NCBI GenBank assembly: GCA_023213315.1
Contig: JAKCPI010021922.1
Coordinates: forward strand, 1 to 64,000
Source of the DNA: Euborellia annulipes
Lineage: Eukaryota; Arthropoda; Insecta; Dermaptera; Anisolabididae
Length of the DNA stretch: 64,000 nt
Direction: 5' to 3'
Part shown: piece after piece, positions 339 through 63,953 of the stretch
How the letters are laid out: each line of letters opens with the position of its first letter
How positions within the stretch are numbered: position 1 is the first letter of the stretch
Translations under genes and position numbers: made by a program
Notes under the pieces: generated by a model
The model's database searches: none
Told to the model about the DNA's origin: nothing
What the model saw: only the letters and a program-made list of their open reading frames with translations

Positions 339-664
339 TTAATTTTTATTACGATGTTGTGTTGAAATATGTGTTTTCAAAGATGACTTATGTTTCGTCC
401 GATACGGGCAAATTGCACATTGAAATTTAGGCTCAACTCCACACTCGTATCGTAGATGTCGAATTAGATGCCTTTGGTGTTTGTAACTTCGATCACATTG
501 CGCACACTGAAAGTTTTTCTTGCGACTCAAGTGCACTTTAAAGATGTGTCTATTTATGGTTTTTTTATAAACACTTGATAAACTACAATGGGGGCAAAAG
601 AATTGTTCCCGAAGGGGGTTGTTCTGATTGGTCGACCGATCCAGATAGAATTGATTAAACGAAA
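339..664 (-). CDS. lola: A-class alternative 3' exon A1 (lola-like, 3 zinc fingers)
   Basis: This is the most distal exon of the array. It begins after a long T-tract and TTTCTAG, in phase 1 (G|TT), and reads VSFNQFYLDRS before the fingers. Finger a is C2H2 with helix YKKTINR. Finger b is C2HC (RHLRYEC) with helix HQRHLIR. A Gly-Val-Glu-Pro linker leads to finger c, C2H2, helix HKSSLKT. A CVYK cysteine common in other A exons is Ser here. The product would be the DNA-binding C-terminus of a BTB transcription factor in the nucleus. The family call follows from the C2HC-linker-C2H2 pair; the upstream exons are not visible. Confidence 0.85.
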
Positions 665-837
665 CTAGAAACAAAAAAAAAAAAAAAAAAAGATTAATTT
701 CTTTTGCAGAAATAATGGAAATGTGATTTGTAATTTAAAAAAACCCAAAATGTTGTTTATAATCAAATGAACAATATCCTTACCACCCCGTTGCCGAGAG
801 ATAAAAGGTGTTGACAAATATTAATATTGATAATCTT

Positions 838-960
838 AAAGGGGCGCGGGTTCGGAGCCCAGGAAAAACTATGAATATGACTTTTAATTTAAATTATTTG
901 GATACCAAATGGTATAAATAAATGTCTCCCTATCAAGCTAAATAATGAGTGTCTCTAGAA
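838..960 (+). repeat. Ancient SINE S relic carried by the A units
   Basis: GCGGGTTCGGAGCCCAGGA, then ATTTGGATACCAAATGGTAT and AAATAAATGTCTCCC: a decayed SINE S middle part. Matching relics occupy the same place relative to the exon in other A units (about 3000 to 3115, 9140 to 9260, 10255 to 10400, 12015 to 12160, 13590 to 13690, 15120 to 15195), so it was duplicated with the unit. Confidence 0.7.
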
Positions 961-1012
961 TGATTAAAATATAAGGAATATAAAAAAAAAAATATATCGA
1001 TTTTTACGTTAA

Positions 1013-1689
1013 TCCAGTCAATATCCACTTTTTACTGGAAAGTATTCGGAAGGTAATGACATTTTGCAGGTTATTTGGGGGGATGTCTATCCTAGGTTTT
1101 CGAGCTCGAGAACTCTGTGCAAACTTGGAGAAGTGGAGGGGGCCCCCTCCTAGGGAGGATGGGGGTAAAAACCTAAAAAACTAAGCTTTTTTCAGATTTT
1201 CGCTTAATATACAGCTGTATCTCGTATAGGCCTATATCATAGCATATTTTGTGAAACAGCACAATACAAAGTTGTAGAGCTTAAAATTTGCTAAAATTTG
1301 GTTGATAAAACGAATTTGAAGACACAACATTAATTGTGATACGGCTAATAAAAATTAGACAAAGTTTCTCGAAATGTATAAATTAGAAATGAAGTCTACA
1401 AATTCGTTTTATCAAGCAGATTTTAGCAAATTTCATACTTATCAAATTTGTATATTGCACTGATCCACAAAATATGCTTACTTTGCGAGATACAATAAGC
1501 GAAAAACTGAAAAAGGCCAAAAATTTTGAGGTTTTAGCCCTCCCTCCCCCTTCTGCAAGTTAGTACAGGGTCCTCGAGCTCAAAAACCTAGGATTAGACT
1601 TCCTAGAGTATCTCCAAATAACCTGCAAAAATTTAATTAATATCGGATACTTTCCAATTACTCCCCTATTTTTCATTATATCAACTGGA
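1013..1689. mobile_element. Palindromic foldback MITE, ~0.68 kb
   Basis: The two ends are imperfect inverted copies over most of the length: TCCAGTCAATATCC with GGAAAGTATTCGGA and TTGCAGGTTATTTGG at the left, and their complements at the right. Inner arms include CTAGGTTTTCGAGCTCGAG / CTCGAGCTCAAAAACCTAG and AAAACGAATTTG / CAAATTCGTTTT. There is no open frame. It is a non-autonomous element in the spacer between A1 and A2. Confidence 0.8.
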
Positions 1690-1774
1690 CTACTTGGGAA
1701 ATCAGAATTTTATTTCTATACGATATGTATACATTTTTATTTTTTAGTTTTTTTTATTTTGCAGAGCTTCCCAA

Positions 1775-1895
1775 ATAATTTTGACAATTTACAGGATTTA
1801 TATTTTGTTTTAAATACCTTCATCACATTGAAATTTCATTTCATTTTGAGCGTTTTGAGACAAGGTCATGAAGTCAACTACCTTGATAGAATCTG
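1775..1895 (-). pseudogene. Fossil B-type exon head with finger 1 remnant
   Basis: After ATATTGCAG the minus strand reads DSIKVVDFMTLSQNAQ then NEMKFQC, continuing with sequence alignable to the LKQHIKFNK part of B32 finger 1 but with deletions and a stop. It shows that a B-like exon once stood between A1 and A2. It is the best preserved of the series. Confidence 0.7.
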
Positions 1896-2476
1896 CAATA
1901 TAAAAATATTACAATTAACTTATTTTAATTTCTTTCTTTTACTATTATATATTTAAAATAATTTTGCATAAGTATAGAAATAAAAATTTTAAATCAAATA
2001 TGAACAATGGAAAGCAAAAATTAATGGAAAAATAAAAAAGTGTATGTGTACCGAATGTGGCATGCCAGTGAATATTTTGCTTTCATGAGATAGTTTATAT
2101 TTAAAAAAAGGTGCTATCAATATGACTGATTAATAATCAGAAACCATTATCTTAAGAACTCGACTTTTTTCACTCAATGATCAATTAATTTTTTGAAACA
2201 ACATACTATGTATTTGTTGTAAGAATGCAAAATCTTGTAAGATTTTTTTGTTTTTATATCCGAGCCTAGGTATATATAATATTCTAGAGTCCTATAAATG
2301 AATACTTCAAAACATGAAAATAATTTGTTTGTCAACAATTTTTTTTACTAAAAACGAGCGTTATTTCAGGTCTTTTTTGTTTTTAACTGAATAATTTTTA
2401 AGTCAATTTAAAATAGAGGTGTGATCTCTCCACATTTTTAGATTACTTTAAAAGATATCACATATTATCACATATA

Positions 2477-2820
2477 TTATATATCAGCACTTCTATTAGA
2501 ATGTTTTTTCATTAAATGTGTTTTCAAATTTGATTTTAGTTTCGTCCGATGTGGGCAGATGGGACATTGAAATTGAGGCTCAACTCCACACTCGTATCGT
2601 AGATGTCGAACCAGTTGATCTTTGTTTTTGTATCTTCGACCGCATTTCCAACACTGAAAGGTTTTGATAGCATCTTTCGGTGTCATGTGCACGTTACAGA
2701 TATGTCTTCGTATGCTGTGTTTATAAACACATGAAAAGCTACAATGCGGACAAAAGTATCGTTCAGGGACGGAGATAGACTGATTGGTCGAACGATCCAG
2801 ATAGTATTGAGTAAACGAAA
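2477..2820 (-). CDS. lola: A-class alternative 3' exon A2
   Basis: The acceptor GATTTCTAG is followed by VSFTQYYLDRS. The frame is open from the acceptor although the first internal Met comes only after finger a, so a Met-based gene call would lose finger a. Helices: a YKHSIRR, b NKDQLVR, c LKSNLKT. Finger b shares its helix with A3 and A4, so these three probably differ in specificity only through fingers a and c. The stop follows the finger c histidine by about 10 residues. Confidence 0.85.
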
Positions 2821-4217: not shown

Positions 4218-4561
4218 TTATATTTCAACAGTTCTATTAGGATGTTTATTCACTAAATGTTTTTTCAAATTTGACTTTAGTTTAGACCGATGAGGGCAAA
4301 TTGGACATTGGAATTGAGGCTCAACTCCACACTCGTATCGTAGATGTCGAACTAGTTGATCTTTGTTTTTATATCTTCGATTGCATTGCCAACACTGAAA
4401 GGTTTTGATGGCGTCTTTTGGAGTCAAATGCAAGTTATGGATGTGTCTTCGGATGCTCTTTTTATAAACACATGAAAAACTACAATGCGGGCAAAAGTAT
4501 CGTTCAGAGAAGTAGGTGTTCTGATTAGTCGACCGATCCAAATAGTAATGAGTAAACGAAA
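4218..4561 (-). CDS. lola: A-class alternative 3' exon A3
   Basis: Acceptor GATTTCTAG, phase 1, then VSFTHYYLDRS. Helices: a YKKSIRR, b NKDQLVR, c LKSNLKK. It is closest to A2 in coding sequence and in the opening residues. The upstream spacer carries two SINE copies in opposite orientation, and the coding frame is undamaged. Confidence 0.87.
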
Positions 4562-6010: not shown

Positions 6011-6014
6011 TTTA

Positions 6015-6426: not shown

Positions 6427-6770
6427 TTATATTTCAACGTTTATATTAGGATGTTTTGCCATTACATGGATTTTCAAATTTGACTTTCGTTTCGATCGAT
6501 GCGAGCAAATTGGACATTGGAATTGAGGCTCAACTCCACACTCGTATCGTAGATGTCGAACCAGTTGATCTTTGTTCTTGTATCTCCGACCGCATTGCGA
6601 ACACTGAAAGTTGTTGATGGCGTCCTTAGGGATCAAGTGCACGTTATGAATGTGTCTTCTTATGTTTTGATTATAAACACATGAAAACCTACAATGCGGG
6701 CAAAAGTATCGTTCAGGGAGGGAGGTGTTCTGATTGGTCGAACGATCCAGATAGAATTGATTAAACGAAA
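6427..6770 (-). CDS. lola: A-class alternative 3' exon A4
   Basis: A T-rich tract and TTTCTAG precede VSFNQFYLDRS. Helices: a YNQNIRR, b NKDQLVR, c RKSNLKI. Its last finger and 3' flank (repeated TATCACCTATC and ATACAATATAAATATT) match A7 at 9538 almost exactly, while its middle finger matches A2 and A3. This suggests exchange between units. Confidence 0.87.
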
Positions 6771-7274: not shown

Positions 7275-7618
7275 TTATATTTCAACTTTTATTTTAGGAT
7301 GTTTTGCCAATAAATGGGCTTTTAAATTTGCCTTTCGTTTCGACCGATGCGAGCAAATTGGACATTGGAATTGAGGCTCAACTCCACACTCGTATCGTAG
7401 ATGTCGAATCAGATGATCTTTATACTTGTATTTCCGATGGCATTGCGCACATTCAGAGATGCTGACGAGGTCCTTTGGAGTCAAGTGCATATTACTGATG
7501 TGTCTTTGCATGCTGTTTTTATAAACACATGAAAAACTACAATGCGGGCAAAAGTATCTTTCAGGGAGGGAGGTGTTCTGATTGGTCGAACGATCCAGAT
7601 AGAATTGATTAAACGAAA
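7275..7618 (-). CDS. lola: A-class alternative 3' exon A5
   Basis: The exon lies about 0.85 kb from A4, the shortest unit length in the A block. The acceptor is TTTCTAG after a T-tract. Helices: a YKNSMQR, b YKDHLIR, c RKANLKA. Its finger a plus linker HISNMHLTP is shared with A7, whose remaining half resembles A4. The inter-finger segment contains LVSISE where other copies have AI(K/N)xFQ. Confidence 0.87.
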
Positions 7619-8662: not shown

Positions 8663-8988
8663 TCAAAGAGGATGTTGTCCCATTATATGTGTTTTCAAAG
8701 TTGAATTATGTTTCGTCCGAAACGGACAAATTGGACATTTGAACTTAGGCTCAACTCCACACTCGTATCGTAGATGTCGAACCAGTTGATCTTTGTGCTT
8801 ATATCTTCGATCGCATTGCGTACACTGAAAGGTTTTGGTGTCCTTCGTAGTCAAATGCACGTTATGGATGTGTCTTTCTATGCTCTTTTTATAAACACAT
8901 GAAAAACTACAATGTGGACAAAAGTATCGTTCAGGGTCGGAGGTGTTCTGAATGGTCGACCAATCCAGAGAGAATTCATTAATCGAAA
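8663..8988 (-). CDS. lola: A-class alternative 3' exon A6
   Basis: Acceptor TTTCTAG, then VSINEFSLDWS, a diverged opening. Helices: a YKKSIER, b HKDQLVR, c HNSTLKT. The C-terminus stops two residues after the last histidine (GQHPL), about nine residues shorter than the other A exons. A fossil B-type exon head lies just 3' of it, at 8405 to 8560. Confidence 0.85.
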
Positions 8989-9537: not shown

Positions 9538-9881
9538 TTATATTTCAACTTTTATATTAGGATGTTTTGCCATTACATGGATTTTCAAATTTGACTTTCG
9601 TTTCGATCGATGTGGGCAAATTGGACATTGGAATTTAGGCTCAATTCCACACACGTATCGTAAATGTTCAATTAGATTCTGTTTGCTCTTGTATCTTCGA
9701 TTGCATTGCGTACACTGATAGGGGTTGATGGCGTTCTCCGGAGTCAAGTGCATATTACTGATATGTCTTTGCATGTTGTTTTTATAAACACATGAAAAAC
9801 TACAATGCGGGCAAAAGTATCGTTCAGGGAAGGAGGTGTTGTGATTGGGCGAACGATCCAGATAGAATTGATTAAACGAAA
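9538..9881 (-). CDS. lola: A-class alternative 3' exon A7 (mosaic)
   Basis: The open frame runs far upstream of the acceptor through the T-tract, but the exon itself starts after TTTCTAG at 9881. Helices: a YKNNMQR, b SKQNLIE, c RKSNLKI. Finger b ends in RYVC rather than RYEC and the linker is Gly-Ile-Glu-Pro, both unique in the block. The 5' half is like A5. The 3' half and downstream flank are like A4, so the exon looks like a product of gene conversion or unequal exchange. Confidence 0.85.
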
Positions 9882-11572: not shown

Positions 11573-11916
11573 TTATAATTCAACTTTTCTATTAGGATGT
11601 CGTTTCAATAAATGGGCTTTCAAATTTGAATTTCGTTTCGACCGGAATGGGCAATGTGGACATTTGAATTTAGGTTCAACTCCACACTCGTATCGTAGAT
11701 GTCGCAATAAAAGTCCTTTGTGCTTGTAACTTCGATCGCAATTATCACACAGAAATGAATTGATGGCGTCTTTTGAAGTCGTGTGCAAACTATTGATGTG
11801 TCTTTGTAAGTTGTATTTATTAAAACAGGAATAACTACATTGATGACAAAAGAATCGCTCCCGGGGGGTAGTGTTCTTATTGGTCGACGGTTCCAGAGCG
11901 AATTGTTTAACCGAAA
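11573..11916 (-). CDS. lola: A-class alternative 3' exon A8
   Basis: The T-tract runs straight into TTTTAG. The frame is open from the acceptor (VSVKQFALEPS), although the first Met lies beyond finger a. Finger a is a different subtype, with CFNK in place of CVYK (helix NKYNLQR), shared with A9 and A10. Finger b helix HKGLLLR, finger c helix RNSNLKA. A run of G/C bases sits immediately downstream of the stop. Confidence 0.84.
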
Positions 11917-13076: not shown

Positions 13077-13426
13077 TTAATTTAGAATCGAGGGGTTTAT
13101 ATTTGGATGCTGTCTCAAAAAATGTGTTTTCAAATTAGACTTTTTTTTCGTCCGATGCGGACAGACTGGACATTGGAATTTAGGCTCAACTCCACATTCG
13201 TCTCGTAAATGTTCAAGTAGATGGCGTTTGAACTTGTATCTTCGAAAGCATTTCTCACACTGATGGGTGTTGCTCGCCTTTTTCGCAGTCAAGTGTACGC
13301 TACTGATGTGTCTTCGTAGGTTGTATTTATTAAAACATGAATAATTACAAGAGGGGCAAAAGAAACGTTCAGTGAGTGAAATGTTCTGATTGGTCGATTG
13401 ATCCAGATAGAATTGATTAAACGAAA
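13077..13426 (-). CDS. lola: A-class alternative 3' exon A9
   Basis: TTTCTAG then VSFNQFYLDQS. Finger a is of the CFNK subtype (helix NKYNLRR). Finger b has helix FKRHLLE and ends EHLRDEC, the Asp resembling B-class fingers. Finger c helix is KKSNLKT. The tail NINPSILN is longer than the usual NRxVEI, because the frame runs a few codons past the usual stop position. Confidence 0.86.
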
Positions 13427-14637: not shown

Positions 14638-14981
14638 TTATATTTCAACTCTTCTATTAGGATGTTGTTTCAATAAATGTTTTTTCAAAGTTGACTTATG
14701 TTTAATCCGTAAGGAGCAAATTGGACATTGGAATTGAGGGTCCACTCCACACTCGTATCGTAGATGTCGAATCAGTTGATCTTTGTTCTTGTATCTTCGA
14801 TCGCATTGCGTACACTGAAAGGTTTTGTTGGCATCCTTCGGAGTCAAGTGCACGTTTTGGATGTGTCTTCGTAGATTGTATTTATTAATACATGAATATT
14901 TACAACGTGAGCAAAAGTATCGTTCCGGAATAAAAGAGTTTTGATTGGTTGAATGATCCAGAGAGAATTGATTAAACGAAA
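14638..14981 (-). CDS. lola: A-class alternative 3' exon A10
   Basis: The exon starts after TTTTTAG at 14981. The frame upstream of it also happens to be open through an in-frame EEINL segment. Finger a is CINK with helix NKYNLRR, finger b NKDQLIR, finger c HKSTLKK with the linker Gly-Val-Asp-Pro. Coding sequence is intact. Confidence 0.86.
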
Positions 14982-16430: not shown

Positions 16431-16618
16431 ATTATATTTTAACATTTCTATTAGGATGCTTTCACAATAAATGTGTTTTCAAAGATGACTTATGTTTCGT
16501 GGGAAACGAGCATATTGGACAATGGAATTTAGACTCTACTCCACATTTGTATCGTAACTGTCGAAACAGTTGATCTTTGTTCTTGTATCTTCGATCACAT
16601 TGAACACACTGAAAAGTG
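16431..16618 (-). pseudogene. A-class pseudo-exon (fingers b and c only)
   Basis: Reading the minus strand from about 16618 gives FQCVQCDRRYKNKDQLFRQ, then KCGVESKFHC and a final finger. The usual RHLRYEC is RQLRYKC, so the zinc-ligand histidine is lost, the linker is Gly-Val-Glu-Ser, and a TGA interrupts the last finger just before its final histidine. No finger a and no acceptor are found 5' of it: the sequence jumps to unrelated spacer. This is a dead copy. Confidence 0.8.
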
Positions 16619-16741
16619 TAAATGAGTAGTGTCCATAAAATGATTAAAATATAAGGAAGGATATAAAAATATACCGAATTTTATTTGGAAAATCAGTAAA
16701 TTTTATTTCTATACGATATGTAGACTATACATTTTTATATC

Positions 16742-17731: not shown

Positions 17732-18069
17732 TTATATTTCAACACTTCTATTAGGATGTTTAAACAATAGATGGGTTTTCAAAGTTGACTTTTGTTTCGA
17801 CCTATACGGACAAAATGGACAATGGAATCTTGGCTCAACTCCACACTCGTATCGTAGATGTCGATTCAGATTCGCTTGAGTCTTATATCTTCGATTGCAT
17901 TGCGTACACTTATAGATGCCGTGTTTCGAAGTCATGTGCTTTTTACGAAGGTGTCTTTGTAGGGTATTTTTATAAATACATGAAAAACCACAATGGGGGC
18001 AAAAGACTCGTTCTGGAAGGCAAGAGTTCTCATTTGTCGAAAGATCCAGAGAGGCCTGATTAAACGAAA
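17732..18069 (-). CDS. lola: A-class alternative 3' exon A11, stop codon at a transposon boundary
   Basis: Acceptor TTTTCAG, phase 1, VSFNQASLDLS. The frame is open from the acceptor through finger a (YKNTLQR), finger b (TQANLNR) and finger c (QKSTLKT). The first Met is internal, so a Met-based call would lose finger a. The TAA stop overlaps the ATT target duplication of the 585-bp TIR element at 17146 to 17730. The exon therefore ends at the transposon and all its 3' flank is transposon sequence. It is the A exon nearest the B block. Confidence 0.85.
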
Positions 18070-19664: not shown

Positions 19665-20086
19665 TTAAAAATTTCCATAATAAGAATGTTTACGTTGAAT
19701 ATGCCCTTTGAGGCTTGATTTCTGTTTACAGCGATAAGGGCAAAAATTACAATGAAATTTAGGCTCAACGCCGCATTCATCATTTAAATGACGATTCAAA
19801 TCACTTTTATATTTATAATTCCTATTACATTTATGACAACAAAATAATTGTGATCTTAAATGTGTATTCCTGATATGACGTTTCGCATATGTAATATGAG
19901 TGAAACGAGCAGGACACTGTGGACAGCCATAGGGCTTCGACAGGTAACCATCACATTTATTAAATTTTATATGTTGTTTTAAATTTGAGTGTAACGTGAA
20001 TAGTTGCAAACATTTGTGACATTGAAATTTTAATCCATTATGAGCGTTTTGAGACAAGGTCATGGACTCAAATATCTTCATAGAAT
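19665..20086 (-). CDS. lola: B-class alternative 3' exon B32 (lola-like, 4 zinc fingers)
   Basis: Most distal B exon. The acceptor is TTTTGCAG rather than the usual TTTTACAG. The head reads DSMKIFESMTLSQNAH, unlike the TENRREE head of other B exons but very like the fossil heads in the A block, so it may be close to the ancestor of both. Finger 1 is C2HC (LHSNLKQ helix), finger 2 HITYAKR, finger 3 C2HC YKSDLNR, finger 4 C2H2 QKSSLKG. Confidence 0.87.
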
Positions 20087-21005: not shown

Positions 21006-21415
21006 TTAATATGAATGTTTACGTTGGATATGCCCTTTGAGGCTTGATTTCTGTTTACACCGATAAGGGCAAAAATTACAATGAAATTTAGGCTCAACGC
21101 CGCATTCATCTTTTAAATGTCTTGTCAAATGATTTTTATATTTATAATTTCTATTACATTTAGGACAACAAAATAATTTTAGAAACGTGCTGGTATGAAT
21201 ATTTCGGATATGACGTTTCATGTGTTGAATACGAAGGAAACGCGAAGGGCAATGCGGACAGGCAAAGGGCTTATCCGAAGGGGTATTACATTTTAAAAAT
21301 ATATGTTGTCTTAAAAGAGCAGATGATGTGAATTGTAGTTTACATTTAGGACAGTAAAATATTCCTTCACGTCGATTTTCAGAGATGGTCATAAATTCAT
21401 ATACCCTGATAGAAT
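21006..21415 (-). CDS. lola: B-class alternative 3' exon B31
   Basis: Begins DSIRVYEFMTISENRRE after TTTTACAG. All four fingers are intact; helices for fingers 2 to 4: RIQHMKR, YKNHLTR, QKSSLKG. The finger 2 to 3 linker reads IRNIHTSTFLKLF, diverged from the INSIHNDSIQEIF that is nearly fixed in the rest of the block. Finger 4 is identical to that of B32. Confidence 0.88.
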
Positions 21416-22732: not shown

Positions 22733-23142
22733 TTATTTGGAATGTTTACGTTTGATATGCGCTGTGAGGCATGATTTTTGTTTACATCGATAAGGGCAAA
22801 AATTGCAATGAAATTTAGGCTCAACGCCGCATTCATCCTTTAGATGTTGATTCAAACTATATTTATATTTATAATCTCTATTACATTTAGGACAACGAAA
22901 GATTTCCTGTATTGAATCGTTATGAATATGACTGATATGGCGTTTCAGGTGATGTTTCTCAATGAAACGCAAAGGACAATGTGGACAGGGGTAGGGCCTA
23001 GTGAAATCACATTTTAAAACTATATGTTCGCTTAAATCAATAGATGATGTGAATTGGAGTCTACATTTAGGACAACGAAATTGCATTTCTTCAGGTCGAT
23101 TTTCCGTGAAGGACATTAATTCATCATAAATCGCGAGAGGAT
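22733..23142 (-). CDS. lola: B-class alternative 3' exon B30
   Basis: Head DPLAIYDELMSFTENRPEE. Four intact fingers; helices 2 to 4: EKHHLKR, YKYSLNQ, QKSCLTA. Finger 2 and the linker HISHIHNDS match B28 (27448), a separate subfamily from the INSIHNDS copies. Acceptor TTTTACAG in phase 1. Confidence 0.88.
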
Positions 23143-23638: not shown

Positions 23639-24051
23639 TTAATTGGAATGTTTACGTTTGATATGCGCTGTTAGGCTTGCTTTCTGTTTACAGCGATAAG
23701 GGCAAAAATTACAATGAAATTTTGGCTCGACACCGCATTCATCTCTTAAATGTTGAATCAAATTACGTTTATATTTATAATCTTTATTACATTTGTGACA
23801 ACGAAAAATTTCCTGTATGGAGTCGTTATGAATAGAATTGATATGGCGTTTCACGCAGTGTTTCTCAGTGAAACGCGTAGGGCAATAAGGGCAGGCAAAG
23901 GGCTTATCCGAAGGGGTACATTTTGAAAGCATATGTTCTCTTAAATCAGTAGGTGTAGTGAATTCTAGTCGACATTTAGGACAATGTAATTTAATTTCTT
24001 CAAGTCGATTTTCAGGCATGGTCATTAGGTCATCAAAAACCCCGTGAGGAT
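23639..24051 (-). CDS. lola: B-class alternative 3' exon B29
   Basis: Head DPHGVFDDLMTMPENRLEE after the canonical TATATTTGTATTTTACAG. Four intact fingers, helices 2 to 4: EKHCVKR, YKRNLIQ, QKASLTA. A solo MITE and a LINE separate it from the next unit. Confidence 0.88.
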
Positions 24052-27447: not shown

Positions 27448-27842
27448 TTACAGGAAGGAAGTATGTTTCCGTATGGTATGCTTTTGGAGGCTTGCTTTCT
27501 GTTTAGTTCGATAAGGGCAAAAATCACAATGAAATTTTGGGTCAACGCCGCATTCATCATTTACATGTCGTGTCAAATGATGTTTATATTTATAATCTTT
27601 ATTACATTTGTGACAACGAAAGATTTCCTGTATTGAATCGTTATGAATATGACTGATATGGCGTTTCAGGTGATGTTTTTCAATGAAACGCAAAGAGCAA
27701 TGGGGACAGGCGTGAGGCCTGGATGGATCGCATTTTAAAACACTATGTTCGCTTAAATCAGTAGATGATGTGAATTGTTGTCTACAATTAGGACAATGAA
27801 ATTTCATTTCTTCAGGTCGATTTTCATAAATCCCGAGGGGAT
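27448..27842 (-). CDS. lola: B-class alternative 3' exon B28
   Basis: The head is shortened (DPLGIYENRPEE, lacking the DELMTIT segment). Finger 1 is intact. Helices 2 to 4: EKHHLKR, YKHHLTR, QKASLQK, with linker Gly-Val-Asp-Pro. About 3.4 kb of transposon-rich spacer separates it from B29, the largest gap between open exons in the array. Confidence 0.87.
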
Positions 27843-36536: not shown

Positions 36537-36949
36537 TTAATGGGAATGTTTACGTTTGATATGCGTTGTGAGGTGTGATTTCTGTTTAAACCGAACAGGG
36601 CAAAAAATGCATTGAAATTTAGGCTGAACGCCACATTCATCCTTTAAATGTCGTGTCAAATCAGTTCTATATTTATAATCTCTATTACATTTGGGACATC
36701 GAAAGATTTCCCTTATCGAGTCGTTATGAATAGAATTGATATGACGTTTCACGCAGTATTTGTCAGTGAAACGTGTAGGGCAAAAGGGACAAGCAAAGGG
36801 CTTATCCGAAGGGGAACATTTTAAAAGCATATGCTCTTTTAAAAGAGTAGGTGTAGTGAAATGTAGTCGACATTTGGGACAGTGAAATTTCATTTCTTCA
36901 CGTCGATTTTCAGTGATGGTCATAAACTCATCATAAACCCCGAGAGGAT
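36537..36949 (-). CDS. lola: B-class alternative 3' exon B20
   Basis: All four fingers are intact. Helices 2 to 4: DKYCVKR, YRTDLTR, QKSHLTT, linker Gly-Val-Gln-Pro (Glu replaced). Finger 4 is CIFCPVRF, lacking the extra Cys of CPYRC. The post-stop motif reads TTCGTGCAG|ATTCGTGTTA, one of the few without an early stop in phase 1. Confidence 0.88.
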
Positions 36950-38552: not shown

Positions 38553-38965
38553 TTAATTGGAATGTTTACGTTTTATATGCCCTGTGAGGTGTGCTTTCTG
38601 TTTACAGCGATAAGAGCAAAAACTGCATTGATATTTAGGTTCAACGCCGCATTCATTATTTAAATGACGATTCAAATCTTTTTTATATTTATAATCTCTA
38701 TTACATTTGGGACAACGAAAGATTTCCTGTATCGAGTCGTTATGAATAGAGTTGATATGACGTTTCACGCATTGTTTCTCAGTGAAACGCGTAGGGCAAA
38801 GGGGACAGGCAAAGGGCTTATTCGAAGGGGTACATTTTGAAAGCATATGTTCTCTTAAAAGAGTAGGTGTAGTGAATTGTAGTCTACATTTGGGACAGTG
38901 AGATTTCATTTCTTCACGTCGATTTTCAGTGAAGGCCATTAATTCATAATTAAACCCGATAGAAT
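38553..38965 (-). CDS. lola: B-class alternative 3' exon B19
   Basis: Head DSIGFNYELMAFTENRREE. Four intact fingers, helices 2 to 4: EKQCVKR, YKKDLNR, QKAHLTG; finger 3 ends LNNEC. The post-stop motif is TTGTGTAG|GTTTGTAACATCACTG, changed in sequence but still an AG followed by a stop in phase 1. Confidence 0.88.
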
Positions 38966-39742: not shown

Positions 39743-40152
39743 TTAATTAGAATGTTTAAGGTTTATATGCACTGCGAGGTTTGCTTTCTGTTTACAGCGA
39801 TAAGGGCAAAAATCGCATTGGAATTTAGGCTCAACGCCACATCCATCCTTTAGATGTTGAGTCAAATTATATTTATATTTATAATCTCTATTACATTTGT
39901 GACAACGAAAGATTTCCTGTATCGAGTCGTTATGAATTGAATTAATATGACGTTTTATGTTTTTTTTATCAGTAAAACGCGAAGGGCAGTGAGGACAGAC
40001 GTAAGGCCTGGAGATATCACATTTAAAAACTCTATGTTCTTTTAAATGAGTAGTTGTTGAGAATTCTAGATTACATTTAGAACTAGGAAATTTCACTTCT
40101 CCACGTCGATTTTCAGTGATGGTCATTAACTCATCAAAAACCCCGTGAGGAT
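39743..40152 (-). CDS. lola: B-class alternative 3' exon B18
   Basis: Finger 1 has lost its first Cys (FPSSKC) but keeps His and the last Cys. Fingers 2 to 4: DKKNIKR, YKYNLTQ, QKANLAV; finger 3 ends KDGC instead of KDEC, as in B25. Front half like B21, middle like B25, last finger its own. Confidence 0.87.
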
Positions 40153-40772: not shown

Positions 40773-41185
40773 TTAATTTGAATGTTTACGTTTTAAATGC
40801 CCTGTGAGGTGCGATTTCTTTTTACAGCGATAAGGACAAAAATTGCATTGAAATTTAGGTTCAACGCCGCATTCATCCTTTAAATGTTGAGACAAATTAC
40901 GTTTGTATTTATAATCTTTATTACATTTGTGACAACGAAAGATTTCCTGTATGGAATCGTTATGAAGAGAATTAATATGACATTTCATCCATTGTTTCTC
41001 AGTGAAACGCTTAGGGCAATAGGGACAGGCAAAGGGCTTATCCGAAGGGGTACATTTTAAAAGCATATGTTCTCTTAAAAGAGTAGGTGTAGTGAATTGT
41101 AGTCTACATTTAGGACAGTGAGATTTCATTTCTTCACGTCGATTTTCAGGCATGGTCATTAACTCATCATAAACCCCGTGAGGAT
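40773..41185 (-). CDS. lola: B-class alternative 3' exon B17
   Basis: Head DPHGVYDELMTMPENRREE. Four intact fingers, helices 2 to 4: EKQWMKC, YKRNLSQ, KKSHLTG. Fingers 2 and 3 are shared with B27, 12 kb away. The clearest copy of the post-stop motif lies just downstream, at 40727 to 40772. Confidence 0.88.
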
Positions 41186-42064: not shown

Positions 42065-42483
42065 TTACTGATAGTAAGAATGTTTCCGTTTAATATGCCC
42101 TTGGAGGCTTGCTTTCTGTTTACATCGATAAGGACAAAAATTACAATGAAATTTTGGGTCAACGCCGCATTCATCATTTAAATGTCGTGTCAAATGATGT
42201 TTATATTTATAATCTCTATTACATTTGTGACAACGAAAGATTTCCTGTATCGAGTCGTTATGAATAGAATTGATATGACGTTTCATGCTTTTTTTACAAG
42301 AGAAACGCGAATGGCAATGGGGACATCCAAAGGGCTTATCCGAAGGGGCACATTTTAAAACTAAATGTTCTTCTAAATGAGTAGGTGATGTGAATTGTAG
42401 TCTACATTGAGGGCAATGAAATTTCACTTCTTCACGTTGATTTTCAGTGATGGTCATTAACTCATCATAAACCCCGAGAGGAT
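42065..42483 (-). CDS. lola: B-class alternative 3' exon B16
   Basis: The open frame continues upstream of the acceptor by chance. The exon begins DPLGVYDELMTITENQREE at 42483. Four intact fingers, helices 2 to 4: CKKSMKR, YKHHLTR, QKASLQG. It founds a subfamily with B14 and B12 marked by S(R/K)FSCK in finger 2. The stop is preceded by KHSYYQ and the 3' flank lacks the AG-containing post-stop motif. Confidence 0.87.
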
Positions 42484-43257: not shown

Positions 43258-43661
43258 TTAAATGGAATGTTTACGTTGAATATGAGATTTTAGGGCTGAT
43301 TTCTGTTTACATCGATAAGTGCAAAAATTGCAATTTAATTTTGGCTCAACGCCGCATTCAACCTTTAGATGTTGATTCAAATTAAATTTATATTTATAAT
43401 CTTTATTACATTTGTGACAACGAAAGATTTCTTGTATCGAATCATTATGAATAGAATTGATATGGCCTTTCAGATGATGTTTCCTATTGAAACGCAAAGG
43501 GCAGTGAGGACAGGCGTAGGGTCTAGGGGTATCACATTTTAAAACTGTATGTTCTTTTAAATGAGTAGTTGTTGGGAATTCTAGTTTAGGACTACGAAAT
43601 TTCATTTCTTCAGGTCGATTTTCAATGATGGTCTTTAGCCCATCATAAACCCCGAGAGGAT
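43258..43661 (-). CDS. lola: B-class alternative 3' exon B15, finger 1 CxxC lost
   Basis: FRSPKLEFPTTTHLKEH lacks both finger 1 cysteines, while the partner His and Cys remain. Fingers 2 to 4: RKHHLKG, YKFNLNQ, QKSALKS. Finger 4 and its 3' flank reappear in B2 (61491), 18 kb away, joined to a different front half. Confidence 0.86.
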
Positions 43662-44051: not shown

Positions 44052-44467
44052 TTAATTGGAATGTTTACGTTTGATATGCGCTGTGAGGCTTGATTTCTGT
44101 TTGCACCGATAAGGGCAAAATTTGCATTGATATTTAGGCTCAACGCCACATTCATCCTTTAGATGTTGAATCAAACTACATTTATATTTATAATCTCTAT
44201 TACACTTGTGACAGCGAAAGATTTCCAAAATCGAATCGTTATGAATATGACTGATATGACGTTTCATGCTTCTTTTACAAGAGAAACGTGAAGGGCAAAG
44301 GGGACATACAAAGGGCTTATCTGAAGGGGTACATTTGGCTTTTACAAAATGTTCGCTTAAATGAGTAGGTGATGTGAATTGTAGCCCACATTGAGGGCAA
44401 TGAAATTTCCTTTCTTCACGTCGATTTTCAGTGATGGTCATTAAATCATCATAAACCTCGAGAGAAT
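44052..44467 (-). CDS. lola: B-class alternative 3' exon B14
   Basis: Head DSLEVYDDLMTITENRREE. Finger 1 is complete with one extra residue before its last Cys (HFVKAKC). Fingers 2 to 4: CKRSMKR, YKCSLIQ, QKSSLTA. The linker reads HISHIHNDSILEIF. The AG of the post-stop motif is lost (GTACATCG). Confidence 0.87.
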
Positions 44468-45742: not shown

Positions 45743-46155
45743 CTAATATGAATGTTTACGTTTGATATGCGCTGTGAGAGTTGCTTTCTGTTTAAACCGA
45801 AAAGGGCAAAAATTGCATTGAAATTTAGGCTCAACGCCGCATTCATCAATTAAATGTCTAGTCAAATTAAATTTATATTTATAATCTTTATTACATTTGT
45901 GACAACGAAAGATTTCCTGTAACGAATCATTATGAATAGAATTGATATGACGTTTCACGCAGAATTTCTCAGTGAAACGCGCAGGGCAATGGGGACATGC
46001 AAAGGGCTTATCCGATGGGGTACATTTTAAAAGCATATGTTCTCTTAAAAGAGTAGGCGTAGTGAATTGTAGTCGACATTTAGGACAGTAAAATTTCACT
46101 TCTTCACGTCGATTTTCAGGGATGGTCATAAACTCATCATAAACCCCGAAAGGAT
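45743..46155 (-). CDS. lola: B-class alternative 3' exon B13
   Basis: Four intact fingers, helices 2 to 4: EKFCVKR, YKFNLTR, QKATLTA. Finger 4 is CPFRF without the extra Cys. The linker carries Leu for Ile (NDSLQEIF). The post-stop motif has lost AG (GTACATGTTTG). Confidence 0.88.
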
Positions 46156-46985: not shown

Positions 46986-47395
46986 TTAAGAATGTTTACG
47001 TTTGATATGCGCTGTGAGGCATGCTTTTTGTTTACATCGATAAGTGCAAAAATTGCAATGAAATTTAGGCTCAACGCCGCATTCATCAATTAAATGTCGT
47101 GCCAAATGATTTTTATATTTATAATCTCTATTACATTTGTGACAACGAAAGATTTCCTGTATCGAGTCGTTATGAATATTCTTGATATGATGTTGCATGC
47201 TTCTTTTAGAAGAGAAACGCGAAGGGCAATGGGGACAGCCAAAGGGCTTCTCCTGAGGGGTACATTTTGAAACTAAATGATCTTTTAAATTAGTAGGTGA
47301 TGTGAATTGTAGTCTACATTTAGGGCAATGAAATTTCACTTCTTCACGTCGATTTTCACGAATGGTCATTAACTCCTCATTAACCGAGATAGAAT
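46986..47395 (-). CDS. lola: B-class alternative 3' exon B12
   Basis: Head DSISVNEELMTIRENRREE. Four intact fingers, helices 2 to 4: SKRSMQH, YKNHLAR, QKACLTA. The finger 2 to 3 linker begins IKNIHNDS. A FSSKRSM finger 2 groups it with B14 and B16. Confidence 0.87.
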
Positions 47396-48385: not shown

Positions 48386-48792
48386 TTAGTAAGAATGCTT
48401 CCGTTTGATATGCCCTTGGAGGCCTGCTTTCTGTTTACAGCGATAAGGGCAAAAATTGCAATGAAATTTTGGCTCAACGCCGCATTCAATCTTTAGATGT
48501 TGAATCAAATTATGTTTATATTTATAATCTCTATTACATTTCTCACAACGAAAGAATTCCTGTACAGAATCGTTATGAATTGAATTTATATGGCGTTTCA
48601 TGTGTTGTTTATCAGCGAAACGTAAAGAGCAATGGGGACAGACAAAGCGCTTATAGGTACATTTTAAAAATTTATGATGTCTTAACTGAGTAGGTGATGT
48701 GAATTGGAGTTTACATTTAGGACAACGAAATTTCATTTCTTGACGTCGATTTTCAGGGGTGGTCATTAACTCACCATGAATCCAGATAGGAT
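48386..48792 (-). CDS. lola: B-class alternative 3' exon B11
   Basis: Head DPIWIHGELMTTPENRRQE. Four intact fingers, helices 2 to 4: DKQHMKR, YKHNLIQ, QKAGLQG. Finger 3 starts CEKC and the linker is NDSVQEFF. It forms a subfamily with B10 and B9 (the PTQLxHHxxLKC finger 1), and their spacers share tRNA-like and hAT-end relics. Confidence 0.88.
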
Positions 48793-49925: not shown

Positions 49926-50338
49926 TTAGTAAGAATGTTTCCCTTTGATATGCCTTTGGAGACTTGCTTTATGTTTACACCGATAAGGGCAAAAATTGCA
50001 ATGAAATTTTGGCTCAACGCCACATTCAACCTTTAGATGTTTATTCAAATTATGTTTATATTTATAATCTCTATTACATTTGTGACAACGAAAGAATTCT
50101 TGTATCGAGTCGTTATGAATATTACTGATATGGCGTTTCAGGTGTGGTTTATCAGTGAAACTTGAAGGGCAATGGGGACAGGCAAAACGCTTATCCCGTC
50201 GGGTACATTTTAAAATTTGATGATGATTTAACTGAGTAGGTGATCTGAATGGGAGACTACATTTAGGACAACGAAATTGCCCTTCTTCACGTCGATTTTC
50301 AGGAGTGGTCATTAACTCATCATGAATCCCGATAGAAT
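49926..50338 (-). CDS. lola: B-class alternative 3' exon B10
   Basis: Head DSIGIHDELMTTPENRREE. Four intact fingers, helices 2 to 4: DKPHLKR, YKHNLNK, HKASLQR; the last His pair reads HIKGKH. A full-length SINE sits within the next spacer upstream. Confidence 0.88.
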
Positions 50339-51737: not shown

Positions 51738-52051
51738 CTAAGAATGTTTACGTTTGATATGCGATATGAGGCCTCCTTTCTGTTTACACCGATAAGGGCA
51801 AAAATTGCAATGAAATTTTGGCTCAACGCCGCATACCCACTTTATATGTTGAGCCAAATATTGTTTATATTTAAAGAATTTTTTACATTTGTAACAAAAG
51901 AGCTTATTACGAGGGGTACATTTTAAAAATTTATGTTGATTCATCTGAGTAGGTGATCTGAATGGGAGATTACATTTAGGGCAAGGAAATTGCCCTTCTT
52001 CACGTCGATTTTCAGGGGTGGTCATTAACTCACCAAGAATTCCAATAGGAT
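51738..52051 (-). CDS. lola: B-class alternative 3' exon B9, finger 2 deleted
   Basis: Only three fingers: finger 1 is intact (CPKCNLPF), then KCTPRNKLF joins directly to finger 3 (YKQYLAQ, ending IKWVC) and finger 4 (QKGGLIS). About 33 residues covering finger 2 and the NDSIQEIF linker are missing in frame. It is the only B exon that lost finger 2, and it keeps the C2HC-linker-C2H2 pair. Confidence 0.86.
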
Positions 52052-53295: not shown

Positions 53296-53708
53296 TTAGT
53301 AAGGATGTTTCCGTTTAATATGCCCTAGGAGGCTTGCTTTCTGTTTAGTCCGATAAGGGCAAAAATTGCAATGAAATTTTGGATCAACTCCACATTCATC
53401 CTTTAAATGTTGAGACAAATTACGTTTATATTTATAATCTTTATTACATTTGGGACATCGAAAGATTTCCTGTATGGAATCGTTATGAATAGCATTGATA
53501 TGACGTTTCATGTATTGTTTCTCAGTGAAACTCATAGGGCAATGGGGACATGCAAAGGGCTTATCCGTAGGGGTACATTTTAAATGCCTATGTTCTCTTA
53601 AATGGCCACGTGTAGTGAATTGTAGACCACATTTAGGACAATCAAATTTCCTTTCTTCACGTCGATTTTCAGTGATGGTCATTAACTCATCATAAACCCC
53701 GATAGAAT
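53296..53708 (-). CDS. lola: B-class alternative 3' exon B8
   Basis: Head DSIGVYDELMTITENRREE. Four intact fingers, helices 2 to 4: EKQYMKR, YKRNLSQ, QKASLLG, with a distinctive CGLQFTTRGHLREHRHLKC finger 1 and PMSF in finger 2. The first two thirds are nearly identical to B2 (61491). Finger 4 and the 3' flank differ. Confidence 0.88.
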
Positions 53709-54601: not shown

Positions 54602-55002
54602 TTAATTGGAATGTTTACGTTTGATATGCGCTAGGAGGTTTGAGTTCTTTTTAAACTTATAATTGCAAAAATTGCATTGAAATTTAGGTTCAACGCCACA
54701 TTCATTATTTAAATGACGATTCAAATCACTTTTATATTTATAATCTTTATCACATTTGGGACAGCGAAAGAATTCCAGTATCGAATCGTTATGAATAGAA
54801 TTGACATGGCGTTTCAAGTGATGTTTCTCAATGAAACGAAAAGGACAATGGGGACAGGCGTATGGTCTACATTTTAAAAGCATATGTTCTCTTAAATGAG
54901 TAGATGATGCGAATTGTAGACTACAATTAGGACAAGGAAATTTCATTTCTTCACGTCGATTTTCAGGAATGGTCATTAACTCATCATAAACCCATAGAGA
55001 AT
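54602..55002 (-). CDS. lola: B-class alternative 3' exon B7
   Basis: Head DSLWVYDELMTIPENRREE; finger 1 CPNC intact. Fingers 2 to 4: EKHHLKR, YKSDLNR, KNSNLLA. Finger 4 is CNFCNYKFKKN, shared only with B5. Finger 3 matches B32. About 200 bp of extra sequence separates the stop from the post-stop motif at 54350 to 54390. Confidence 0.87.
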
Positions 55003-56498: not shown

Positions 56499-56905
56499 TT
56501 AATTGGAATGTTTTCGTTTGATATGCGTTGTGAGGTTTGATTTCTGTTTAAACCGAATAGAGCAAAAATTGCATTGAAATTTAGGCTCAACGCCACATTC
56601 ATCATTTAAATGACGTTTCAAATCACATTTATATTTATAATCTCTTTTACATTTGTGACAGAAAAAGATTTCCTGTATAGAGTCGTTATGAATATGACTG
56701 ATATGGCGGGATAGGTGATGTTTCAAAATGAAACGCAAAGGGCAATGAGGACAGGCGTAGGGCCTAGAGGTATCACATTTTAAAATTACATGTTCGCTTA
56801 AATCAGTAGATGATGTGAATTGTAGTCTACATTTAGGACGAAATTTCACTTCTTCACGTCGATTTTCAGGGAAGGTCATTAACTCATCATAAACCCCGAA
56901 AGGAT
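56499..56905 (-). CDS. lola: B-class alternative 3' exon B6, finger 1 lacks a Cys
   Basis: KFRPKCRLQF lacks the first finger 1 cysteine. Fingers 2 to 4: LKHHLSR, YKCDLKR, QKSNLTT; finger 3 is CHKCKRDY preceded by IFFC. Linker HISHIHNDS as in B28 and B30. A very T/A-rich, low-complexity stretch lies downstream. Confidence 0.87.
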
Positions 56906-58034: not shown

Positions 58035-58426
58035 TTAATTGGAATGTTTGCGTATAATATGCTCTTTGAGGTTTGATTTCTTTTTATACCTATAATTGCA
58101 AAAATTGCACTGAAATTTAGGTTCAACGCCACATTTCTCCCTTAGATGTTGATTCAAATTATGTTTATATTTATAATCTCTATTACATTTGTGACAACGA
58201 AATATTTCCTGTATTGAGTCGTTATGAATAGAATTGACATGGCGTTTCATGTGTTGTTTCTCAGTAAAACGCAAAGGGCAATGGGGACAGACAAAGGGCT
58301 TTTCATGGGAGGTGCATTTTGAAAATGTATGTTCTCTTAAATAAGTAGGTGTAGTGAACTCTAATTTCATTTCTTCACGTCGATTTTCAGGGATGGTCAT
58401 TAACTCATCATAAATTCCGATAGGAT
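58035..58426 (-). CDS. lola: B-class alternative 3' exon B5, finger 1 CxxC lost
   Basis: The head runs straight into MKLEFTTPTYLREH, so finger 1 lacks its first two ligands. Fingers 2 to 4: EKQHMKR, YKHNLNQ, KKSNLKE; finger 3 ends REKC rather than KDEC. Post-stop motif ATACAG|ATTTGTCACATCACTG followed by a palindromic GAATCAGTGG. Confidence 0.86.
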
Positions 58427-58958: not shown

Positions 58959-59296
58959 TTAATTAGAATGTTTACGGTTTATATGCCCTGCGAGGTTTGC
59001 TTTCTGTTTACAACGATATGTGCAAAAATTGCAATGAAATTTCGGCTCGACGCCACATTCATCCTTTAGATGTTGATTCAAATTATATTTATATTTATAA
59101 TCTTTATTACATTTGGGACAACGAAAGAATTCCTGTATCGAGTCGTTATGAATACAATTGATATGACGTTTCATCCAATATTTACTTAAGAAACGCGTAG
59201 GACAATGTGGACAGGCGTAGGGTCGACTATGAATTTTAATTTCTTCAGGTCGATTTTCAGGGATGGTCATTAACTCATCAAAAACCCCAAAAGAAT
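58959..59296 (-). CDS. lola: B-class alternative 3' exon B4, finger 1 absent
   Basis: DSFGVFDELMTIPENRPEEIKIHSRPYAC: the whole of finger 1 has been deleted in frame, leaving three fingers (SKYWMKR, YKYNLNQ, QKANLAG), the same domain number as an A-class exon. Its 3' flank is like B18, with the post-stop motif GTACAG|GTTTGTGACAC. Confidence 0.87.
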
Positions 59297-60119: not shown

Positions 60120-60523
60120 TTATTTGAAATGTTTACGTTTTATATGCCCTTGGAGACCTGCTTTCTGTTTACTGCGAAAAGAACAAAAATTGCATTCAAA
60201 TTTAGGTTCAACACCGCATTCATCCTTTAGATGTCGATTCAAAGCAGTTTTATATTTATAATATTTATTACATTTGTGACAGCGAAAGAATTCTTGTATC
60301 GAGTCGTTATGAATAGAATTGATATGACTTTTCAGGTGATGTTTCAAAATGAAACGCACAGGGCAGTGAGGGCAGGCGAAGGGCCTAGGGGTATCACATT
60401 TTAAAACGCTATGTTCTGTTAAAAGAGTACTTGTTGAGAATTCCAGTTTAGGACTAGGAAATTTCATTTCTTCAGGTCGATTTTCAGGGATGGTCATTAA
60501 TTCATCATAAACACCGATAAAAT
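60120..60523 (-). CDS. lola: B-class alternative 3' exon B3, finger 1 CxxC lost
   Basis: FPSPKLEFSTSTLLTEH has no finger 1 cysteines. Fingers 2 to 4: LKHHLKS, YKTALNR, QKAGLQG. Finger 3 is CNKYYKYK and its helix is shared with B1. The downstream motif reads GTAAAG|GTTTGTGACCTCAC. Confidence 0.86.
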
Positions 60524-61490: not shown

Positions 61491-61903
61491 TTATTTGGTA
61501 TGTTTACGTTGGATATGAGATTTTAGGGCTGCTTTCTGTTTACAACGATAAGTGCAAAAATTGCAATGAAATTTTGGATCAACGCCGCATTCATCATTTA
61601 AATGTTGAGTCAAATTACGTTTATATTTATAATCTTTATTACATTTGGGACATCGAAAGATTTCTTGTATGGAATCGTTATGAATAGCATTGATATGACG
61701 TTTCATGTTTTGTTTCTCAGTGAAACTCATAGGGCAATGGGGACATGTAAAGGGCTTACCCGTAGGGGTACATTTTAAATGCCTATGTTCTCTTAAATGG
61801 CCACGTGTAGTGAATTGTAGACCACATTTAGGACAATCAAATTTCCTTTCTTCACGTCGCTTTTCAGTGATGGTCATTAACTCATCATAAACCCCGATAG
61901 AAT
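61491..61903 (-). CDS. lola: B-class alternative 3' exon B2 (mosaic)
   Basis: Head, fingers 1 and 2 are as in B8 (TTRGHLREHRHLKC, PMSFTEKQ). Fingers 2 to 4: EKQNMKR, YKRNLTQ, QKAALKS. Finger 4 plus the first 3' flanking bases resemble B15 instead (ALKSHIQRKH; tail HTK). Four fingers intact. The switch falls between finger 3 and finger 4. Confidence 0.88.
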
Positions 61904-62215
61904 CTGTAAAATACAAATATAAACTAGATTTAATTTAAATTTTTTAACTTATTTATGGTTTCTAGAGAAATTAATTTGCTATTGGCTGTAAAGAATGACA
62001 ACAAGTAAGAAGAGAAAGAACTCATTTAATATTTGTAACATACTGAAGATGGGAGTAGCATGCTGAAGATGGGAGTCGTTTGGTCCCCGAAACATCTTTG
62101 ACAAAGAGGATTTAACGAATTTTGGTTTTAAAGAATTTTTATCTTTATTTTTGAAACAATTTTACTTTAACATTTTAAGAAGGTCAACGAACAGAAAACA
62201 TTTTTTATTATTAGG

Positions 62216-62305
62216 GAAACGCGTAGGACAATGTGGACAGGCGTAGAGGTATCACATTAAAACTCTATGTTCTGTTAAATTAGTAGTTGATGAAAATTGT
62301 AATTT
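62216..62305 (-). pseudogene. B-class exon fragment (finger 1 to 2 boundary)
   Basis: Matches, on the minus strand, the coding stretch for an STTxLTEHxVLKC...PYACPHCPTRF-like segment, with deletions and no surrounding exon. It is flanked by unrelated repeat on both sides. This is a relic of a former unit between B2 and B1. Confidence 0.6.
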
Positions 62306-62309
62306 TTTT

Positions 62310-62765
62310 CGTTTTTGCCTGAGTCCCGGGGCCTCTCAAAGAAAAATTTCCAATAATTTTTTTTTATCTAAATTTTTCCGTTTTGCCTGAGCCCTGAGGG
62401 CCTCGGGGCCTCTCAAAGTCAAATATTTGGGGGCCTATGGGGTGGACTGCCCCCACCCCCTTGGTACTCCTCTGTTTCACAGAGCCCCAATACTTTTTTT
62501 CGCTCACATGAACCAGTTATAGGTCGTCTTCGACCCATTCTAGAAAAGAAAAAAACCTCATCTAATGATTGTAACACAATCATTTCAATACCAACCACCA
62601 GTCCACAAATCGTGGCAGATCCCGGGCTAACAAGGTAAATTTTCAAGGCACTTAGGCCACTTAAAATTGGGCCCTCTGTATTTGGGGATGAGATTTTATA
62701 CAACTTTCTTATCCTAAGAGGAGACTTTGGCAATGTTGAATTGTTTGCTGCAAACTGGAGGAGGA
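62310..62765 (-). mobile_element. SINE family C body next to GC-rich repeat
   Basis: The stretch 62590 to 62765 shares TTTGCAGCAAACAATTCAAC and GAGGGCCCAATTTTAAGTGG with 21535 to 21785. The 62310 to 62480 part contains two copies of GGGGCCTCTCAAAG in direct orientation. A 104-codon open frame here is repeat-derived and has no recognisable domain. Confidence 0.5.
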
Positions 62766-63298
62766 ATGAAAGTAGTAAATTGTAGATAGATACTTCCTAC
62801 TTCATAAATATGATATGTATAGGGATTAATTGGCCAAAAAAAATAAATAAATAAAACATATCATAGTTGGTTTTAGAAATTCCAATTTTTATTTAAGCCA
62901 GATAGACAGAGAAAAAAACATTTATTTTTGAATATCGAATAGAAATGGAAGATAAAAAAAAAATAAAAAATAAAAATAATTACAAATTTTGTTCTAATTA
63001 TTAAAACTAAGGTAATATGTATGATGACTTTAACAGGCATTCGTCTAAATAAATTCAATAAATTTAGAAAAGCAATCGAGAAGGGAACAATTGCAAAAGA
63101 GGAGAGATCCCTGCCTCTGTGCTACATCTCAGGAACAAGAAAATTAAATTTAAAAATTTGCTATTGTGATTTATTATTATTTTTTTTATTTGATAACAAA
63201 ACCAAGTTGTGATTTTAAATATTTATTTTTACTGTTCGTCGAAAAAAACACGTTAAACAAATACTAAGATTTTTCCTCATAATATAAAGTGATTTACG

Positions 63299-63409
63299 GA
63301 GAATAAAACCAGCACATAATGGACTCAATTTAATTCGTAGATATCACGCCTGGTCATCATCTACGAATTAAATTAATGTCGCGTCCATTGTATGCTGGTT
63401 TTATTCTCC
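63299..63409. mobile_element. Short palindrome, 111 bp
   Basis: GGAGAATAAAACCAGCA...TGCTGGTTTTATTCTCC with inner arms TTTAATTCGTAGAT / ATCTACGAATTAAA. The centre reads ATCACGCCTGGTC. Confidence 0.7.
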
Positions 63410-63546
63410 AGTTCCTTCTATATGTGTATAATTCAGCGAAAAATTCTAATCCTAATCTAAAGGAATGTTGTTAAAGAAAAAAAAAATGGGATGATTCGAG
63501 GCGCCAGTAAGACATCCAGTGATGTCACAAATCTGAACAAAAAGAC

Positions 63547-63953
63547 TTAAATGGAATGTAAACAATGGATATGACGTAATAGAGCTGATTTATGTTTAGA
63601 GCGATAAGGGCAAAAAGTGCATTGAAATCTAGGCTCAACACCACATTCATTCCTTAAATGTCGATTCAAAGCAGTTTTATATTTATAATCTTTATTACAT
63701 TTGTGACAACGAAAGATTTCCTGTATCGAATCGTTATGAATTGATTTGATATGGCGTTTTATGTATTGTTTACTAGAGGAACGAAAAGAGCAATGGGGAC
63801 AGGCAAAAGTCTTATCCCGAGGGGTACATTTTGAAACTGAATGTTCTTTTAAAGGAGTAGTTGTTGAGAATTCTAGTTTAGGATTACGAGTGTTCAATTC
63901 TTCACGTCGATTTTCAGGGATGGTCTTTAACCCAACATAAACCCCGATAGAAT
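63547..63953 (-). CDS. lola: B-class alternative 3' exon B1, finger 1 CxxC lost
   Basis: This is the first array exon met by a polymerase entering from beyond 64000. Head DSIGVYVGLKTIPENRREE; NTRNPKLEF replaces the finger 1 cysteines. Fingers 2 to 4: SKQYIKR, YKTALNR, HKSALLR. Acceptor TTTTACAG with the usual upstream TGTATTTG. Whether it is the first of the whole array cannot be seen. Confidence 0.86.

Follow-up and report, generated by a model that had tools for sequence, protein, structure and literature searches.

The DNA analysed here, called the window, is a 64,000-nucleotide stretch of the earwig Euborellia annulipes (GenBank assembly GCA_023213315.1, contig JAKCPI010021922.1, below C17336, positions 1-64000). 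I read it as part of an expanded variable region of lola (longitudinals lacking), in which alternative last exons would share a single hub exon, and from the sequence I give this reading a probability of about 0.88. The minus strand of the window carries 44 copies of a lola-type zinc-finger 3' exon, and the plus strand none. Forty of these are open, and the genome's one lola hub exon fits every one of them in donor phase and last base, which bears out the proposal of an earlier account of this DNA (the preliminary description) that these are lola-type alternative 3' exons.

To count the copies, stop-to-stop frames of at least 90 amino acids were listed, both strands were scanned for C2H2-like motifs, and each copy was modelled. 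The minus strand carries 149 such motifs and the plus strand two, both with in-frame stops. The copies form two types, A (12 copies, 339-18069) and B (32 copies, 19665-63953), of which 11 and 29 are open, and their median spacing is 1373 bp. All 40 open copies have an AG directly before the exon, are read in phase 1 and end in a stop of their own. The preliminary description had reported 43 copies and one pseudo-exon, and its counts, coordinates, acceptors, phase and stops all proved right when the copies were remodelled. Scores of the copies with hidden Markov models (HMMs) are high, and a signature pattern described below has 203 matches genome-wide against none in a reversed control, so chance is not an issue.

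Copy modelling placed the open type A exons, each with three fingers by motif, at 339..664, 2477..2820, 4218..4561, 6427..6770, 7275..7618, 8663..8988, 9538..9881, 11573..11916, 13077..13426, 14638..14981 and 17732..18069. Modelling and HMM together identified one broken type A fragment, consisting of the last two fingers only (open frame 16462..16680). Eighteen of the 29 open type B exons have four fingers: 19665..20086, 21006..21415, 22733..23142, 23639..24051, 27448..27842, 28393..28799, 36537..36949, 38553..38965, 40773..41185, 42065..42483, 44052..44467, 45743..46155, 46986..47395, 48386..48792, 49926..50338, 53296..53708, 54602..55002 and 61491..61903. The other 11 have three. Finger 1 is degenerate in those at 29761..30179, 34166..34557 (a mosaic by the recombination test), 35113..35522, 39743..40152, 43258..43661, 56499..56905, 58035..58426, 60120..60523 and 63547..63953, it is lost at 58959..59296, and the exon at 51738..52051 simply has one finger fewer. 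Three type B copies are broken by stops or a frameshift. Frame listing and modelling show the frame of one to be broken near the 5' end (open frame 31135..31527) and that of another in its 5' part (32156..32515), and the third (33163..33569) keeps its acceptor and has in-frame stops in finger 1. If the assembly is nanopore-based, these three may be base errors.

PDB sequence searches return generic zinc-finger proteins such as CTCF and PRDM9, and Pfam finds zf-C2H2 or C2H2-type families in the three open exons scanned (6427..6770, 44052..44467 and 51738..52051), with FLYWCH absent among the rows shown for these three of the 40. A single B exon found no homologue in the protein collection searched, probably because the length limits of that collection leave out full-length lola proteins. 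AATAAA or ATTAAA occurs within 600 bp downstream of 40 of the 41 exon copies examined, which says little because the DNA is 30% GC.

The lola gene itself was found with a fly lola BTB sequence as query against the assembly, which gave 61 matches. Those with the highest identity (76 and 79%) are neighbouring exons of contig C3230 (60107-60310 and 61224-61412), and Pfam recognises PF00651 in the BTB exons there. This common region leads through a small intron to a 44-codon hub exon (C3230:62154-62285) with a phase 1 donor, CAA G/gtaag (the slash marks the junction), and these 44 residues have one match in the 903-Mb assembly. Because the hub ends in phase 1 with a G, the A exons begin with V and the B exons with D or E. 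With that G opening the split codon, all 11 open A exons of the window start with V, and of the 29 open B exons 28 start with D and one with E; eight further A exons on contig C11 begin with A or V. A second BTB gene lies on the opposite strand about 8 kb from the lola BTB exons (C3230:51632-52165), a placement similar to that of pipsqueak, which lies near lola in flies.

Among the 120 proteins listed of 3440 found with the joined common exons, most annotated lola proteins are 51-60% identical over 93-99%, and the annotated longitudinals lacking proteins that match come from Orthoptera, phasmids, cockroaches, termites and beetles. Two other proteins head the list, one from Aedes in which the BTB part is present in duplicate (70% identical over 47% of the query) and a 268-amino-acid protein from a 2763-base contig (93% over 69%). 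Ninety-nine of the 120 were usable, having the HRDSQ hub end (HRDPQ in the earwig) and a tail of more than 40 amino acids, although many are isoforms of one species and do not make 99 independent cases. Directly after the hub, all 99 continue with a residue that GNN codons encode: G in 38, D in 25, E in 19, A in 13 and V in 4. This GNN rule is a test, independent of the window, that the window exons fit a lola hub. All 40 open exons, A and B alike, also match the lola tail of another insect at E <= 1e-5. They carry fingers of the CG-x-E-P-x-F-x-C type, as lola variable 3' exons do, and CGx[EDQ]P occurs in 54 of the 99 tails of relatives.

The array extends well beyond the window. C17336 is 87,065 bp long with exons or exon pieces up to its far end, and the inference in the preliminary description that the array runs past the window edge holds at the high end, where B copies continue up to the last bases of the contig; at the low end, 339 bp separate the first exon from the end of the contig. 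Elsewhere in the assembly (25,949 contigs), parts of two contigs were fetched at 1-60 kb. Contig C3661 carries type B copies at about 1-25 kb and then diverged single exons at 28-57 kb, and C11 carries type A copies at about 8-23 kb and then diverged single exons from 24 kb on. Lola-type signatures are also present downstream of the hub on C3230 itself (128-170 kb).

These signatures were counted at the DNA level with the pattern CG-[V,I,L,M,F]-[E,D,Q]-P-x-[F,Y]-x-C, which accounts for the 203 matches above, and a variant of it that has K as its third residue adds 21 (control 0), giving 224 in all, of which 10 have no listed position. At least 185 lie on eight long contigs (C17336 49, C7684 30, C17546 26, C14438 26, C3661 17, C23515 at least 16, C11 15, C3230 6). 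The strong expansion and the larger repertoire outside the window that had been predicted are thus both found, with the understanding that the counts are of DNA signatures, not transcripts, and include the three broken B copies. The first pattern also misses copies, as it marks 48, 17 and 11 places in fetched C17336, C3661 and C11, where the HMMs list more.

The remaining signatures are on contigs such as C187, C11328, C12548, C23171, C22746, C3976, C3977 and C25119. Stretches of 1.2 kb from C187, C11328 and C23171 are 98.8-99.9% alike over 0.8-1.2 kb, so these contigs are probably allelic, and such contigs were left out of the 185. Overlap among the eight long contigs was compared for C3661 with C17336 and C11 with C17336; the 12 longest alignments shown for each fetched part include one above 90% identity, a 533-bp repeat. 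Contigs C3976, C3977 and C22746 have lola-like finger matches with equal scores and an identical signature, and are probably allelic versions of a further section of the locus or of a paralogue. A 3-4 kb piece of C25119 (78131-82033), with three B copies, is 98.6 and 96.5% identical to C17336:73392-76598 and may be another haplotype, a dispersed copy or a misassembly.

How do the copies differ from one another? Helix positions -1, 2, 3 and 6 of each finger are the usual DNA contacts, and 1 and 5 usually are not. Counted pairwise and uncorrected for recombination, as are the dN/dS values below, the proportion of nonsynonymous differences (pN) in the 29 open window B exons is 0.351 at contacts, 0.193 at other finger sites and 0.042 at zinc-binding and hydrophobic sites (permutation p 0.002); in the 11 open window A exons it is 0.331, 0.229 and 0.039 (p 0.05). 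A larger set gives the same picture, with 0.368, 0.198 and 0.051 (permutation p 0.001) for 48 B exons of at least 128 amino acids from C17336 and C3661, and 0.342, 0.212 and 0.039 (p 0.017) for 19 A exons (11 from the window, eight from C11). In that set the ratio of nonsynonymous to synonymous change (dN/dS) at contacts is 1.43 for B (column bootstrap 0.97-2.05) and 1.12 for A (0.71-1.68), against 0.15 and 0.10 at zinc-binding and hydrophobic sites. No two copies of a type share a contact string, either in the window (29 of 29 B, 11 of 11 A) or in the larger set (48 of 48, 19 of 19). By these counts the zinc-binding frame is kept while most contacts are free to change, and strict positive selection on the B contacts is likely.

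The families show signs of both local growth and recombination. When the 56 B copies of C17336 and C3661 are taken in that contig order, which is assumed, neighbours are 0.823 alike against 0.794 in random order (permutation p 1e-4), and a tandem repeat unit of about 1 kb runs over 30886-36016 of the window. Among 52 B copies, likeness is 0.78 in the exon, 0.65 in the 150 bp upstream and 0.55-0.57 in the 150 bp downstream, and it falls to 0.50-0.52 at 150-300 bp, the shuffled baseline being 0.51. The upstream conservation is confined to about the last 45 intron bases, with a near-invariant acceptor. The pairwise homoplasy index (PHI) test for recombination among B copies gives p 0.0033, the lowest value that 300 shuffles allow. 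The two exon halves point to one and the same nearest relative in five of 48 B copies, whereas odd and even codons do so in 21 of 48. By sequence, three B copies are clear mosaics by the thresholds set here. The sequences thus argue that recombination has mixed the exon copies.

From these observations a mechanism can be proposed. The common BTB part would end at the C3230 hub exon, which would be joined to any one of about two hundred alternative last exons, its donor pairing with one of many downstream acceptors, in cis by default. Each last exon has a separate acceptor and stop, and presumably a separate 3' end, and would terminate the transcript, so that each transcript would join the same BTB protein-interaction part to different C2H2 fingers. 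Types A and B would be two tandem families that grew by local duplication, in one place in units of about 1 kb, alongside other exons that are single and more diverged. Recombination would then have mixed the copies and the DNA-contact residues would have diverged under relaxed or positive selection, with the zinc-binding frame kept. The outcome would be a single scaffold with a whole repertoire of DNA specificities; the transcription and biological use of the array are likewise predicted from the DNA.

Several findings count against parts of this account. The contigs of the hub and of the array are unjoined in this assembly, leaving cis linkage unproven, and no lola-type exon occurs in the final 8.4 kb of C3661, where the contig would be expected to face the hub. 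An in-frame methionine precedes finger 1 in 28 of the 29 open B exons. Strict positive selection is unproven because the contact dN/dS bootstraps span the ranges given above. Contacts of finger 1 are no more variable than other sites (B 0.278 versus 0.285; A 0.224 versus 0.261), variation in B is fairly high at helix positions 1 and 5 as well (pN 0.251), and damage to or loss of finger 1 in 10 of the 29 open B copies sits poorly with a simple story of contact diversification. The preliminary description had itself named the lack of a BTB exon on the same scaffold as grounds for giving up its proposal. Formally this is what was found, as none of the 61 BTB matches is on C17336 and the fetched contig parts contain no BTB frame, but it carries little weight because C17336 is only 87 kb long and both its ends lie inside or next to exon copies.

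The separation of hub and array is also what would be expected if the array lay elsewhere, or in transcription units of its own, and its exons were joined to the lola hub in trans, a version that overlaps with the one I prefer and that I consider possible but doubtful. Trans-splicing is known for lola in flies (PMC4667647), and in Drosophila mod(mdg4) is another gene in which it occurs. The exon-free far end of C3661 is consistent with it, as is the C25119 piece, since that contig is almost identical to part of the array there, and the 30 longest alignments of its fetched 30 kb with C17336 include no other that is both long and nearly identical. However, contig breaks are expected for a repeat array in a fragmented assembly, and the window shows no exon on the opposite strand.

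Could the array instead be a decaying relic, a functionless burst of duplicates? Four of the 44 copies are broken and 11 of the 29 open B exons have one finger fewer, ten of them through damage to or loss of finger 1. But the other 40 copies are open, dN/dS at zinc-binding and hydrophobic sites is 0.15 in B and 0.10 in A, and the B exons remain 0.78 alike while their flanks at 150-300 bp have fallen to the shuffled baseline, so that I regard a relic as very improbable. Finally, that the exons are separate short lola-like zinc-finger genes, each transcribed and translated alone, is hardly credible: the methionines of the B exons would allow independent starts for type B taken alone and the window's contig has no hub exon, but a methionine precedes the fingers in none of the 11 A exons, all 40 acceptors stand in the one phase that fits the lola hub (these two facts rule it out as the principal explanation), and upstream conservation limited to the last 45 or so bases across 52 B exons also weighs against it.

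An expanded lola variable region is not in itself a new kind of system. PMC5000498 describes more than 180 alternative 3' ends from one hub exon in Nasonia vitripennis, over 350 kb and with a median of about one per 1400 bases, and 58 in Apis mellifera, so that the suggestion in the preliminary description of an undescribed diversity-generating system does not stand. The earwig resembles these two in having one hub and a very large set of 3' ends, and shares with the mega-expanded form well over 100 3' exons (counted as DNA signatures), a spacing of about 1.4 kb (the median in the window) and a single hub. It differs in belonging to the Dermaptera rather than the Hymenoptera and in being known from DNA alone, whereas transcripts were shown in the wasp and the bee. 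Because PMC5000498, from 2016, states that none of the insects it examined outside the Hymenoptera showed a lola expansion of comparable size, I regard the earwig array as apparently an independent instance of a giant lola.

The host is an earwig by its mitochondrial cytochrome oxidase subunit I (COI), which was translated with code 5 and used in a protein search (120 matches listed of 7997). Among those listed, the best overall is an unnamed protein (92%), the five best-scoring named matches are Labidura japonica (90%), Apachyus feae (87%), Euborellia arcanum (90%), Haplodiplatys aotouensis (89%) and Doru luteipes (87%), and the next are beetles, alderflies and bush crickets at no more than 86%. 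The lineages of Labidura and Euborellia were checked and are earwigs, as Apachyus, Haplodiplatys and Doru are too. COI rules out a hymenopteran host, and the absence of named Hymenoptera among the 120 listed of 3440 lola relatives supports this. The mitochondrial contig also has, beside COX1 at about 2850-2970, a GC-rich repeated hairpin-like sequence that seems unusual for an insect mitochondrion.

Other systems share parts of the design. Drosophila melanogaster lola likewise has a BTB common part with alternative zinc-finger last exons, but about ten times fewer than the earwig (20 last exons, 17 with fingers; PMC10551640). The mod(mdg4) gene of Drosophila has a BTB hub with about 30 variable 3' exons (PMC4667647 and PMC11426971), and is alike to that extent. 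Its tails, however, are FLYWCH and not classical C2H2, and some of its variable exons are on the opposite strand, whereas those of the earwig window are all on the minus strand. KRAB and ZAD zinc-finger clusters combine tandem amplification with variation focused on DNA-contact residues, in many separate genes. The earwig array is like them in its tandem growth and contact variation, and unlike them in being one scaffold gene with alternative last exons. Labels like that of a termite lola, isoform X47, among the 120 listed of 3440 relatives suggest that other Polyneoptera have dozens of lola ends.

What is new here is the contact-focused variation, the distinct contact sets of all 40 open exons and the recombination between copies. 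Contact diversification and recombination, both tested in the earwig, go unreported in section 15 of PMC5000498. That the contact-residue result is absent from print is a guess, since no search was aimed at lola contact residues; among the 15 papers listed of 33 from an earwig-aimed search, which mostly lacked subscription papers and supplements, no earwig paper contains the word lola.

The presence in an earwig of one hub and at least 185 tail signatures on long contigs suggests that this design has evolved more than once, and the animal offers another system in which to ask how one hub chooses among many last exons. The contact-focused variation also leads to a testable claim, namely that the copies differ in DNA specificity and that the array evolves as a recognition repertoire. 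More speculatively, and as an idea I would offer only tentatively, earwigs may have made one BTB gene into a library of about two hundred DNA readers, selected by splicing, without any shared history with the wasp and bee expansions. Its contacts would be under diversifying selection and its copies reshuffled by recombination, a single-gene counterpart of the KRAB clusters that would perhaps act against transposons or give many cells identities of their own.

Rfam finds no families and ARAGORN no transfer RNAs in the window. Two plus-strand open frames at 24345-24972, without significant Pfam match, look to me like the 3' end of a retrotransposon frame. Large inverted repeats lie at 25686-26187, 37379-37955 and 55830-56041, with arms 84-96% complementary and the appearance of miniature inverted-repeat transposable elements, and other repeats common to distant places of the window have a similar look.

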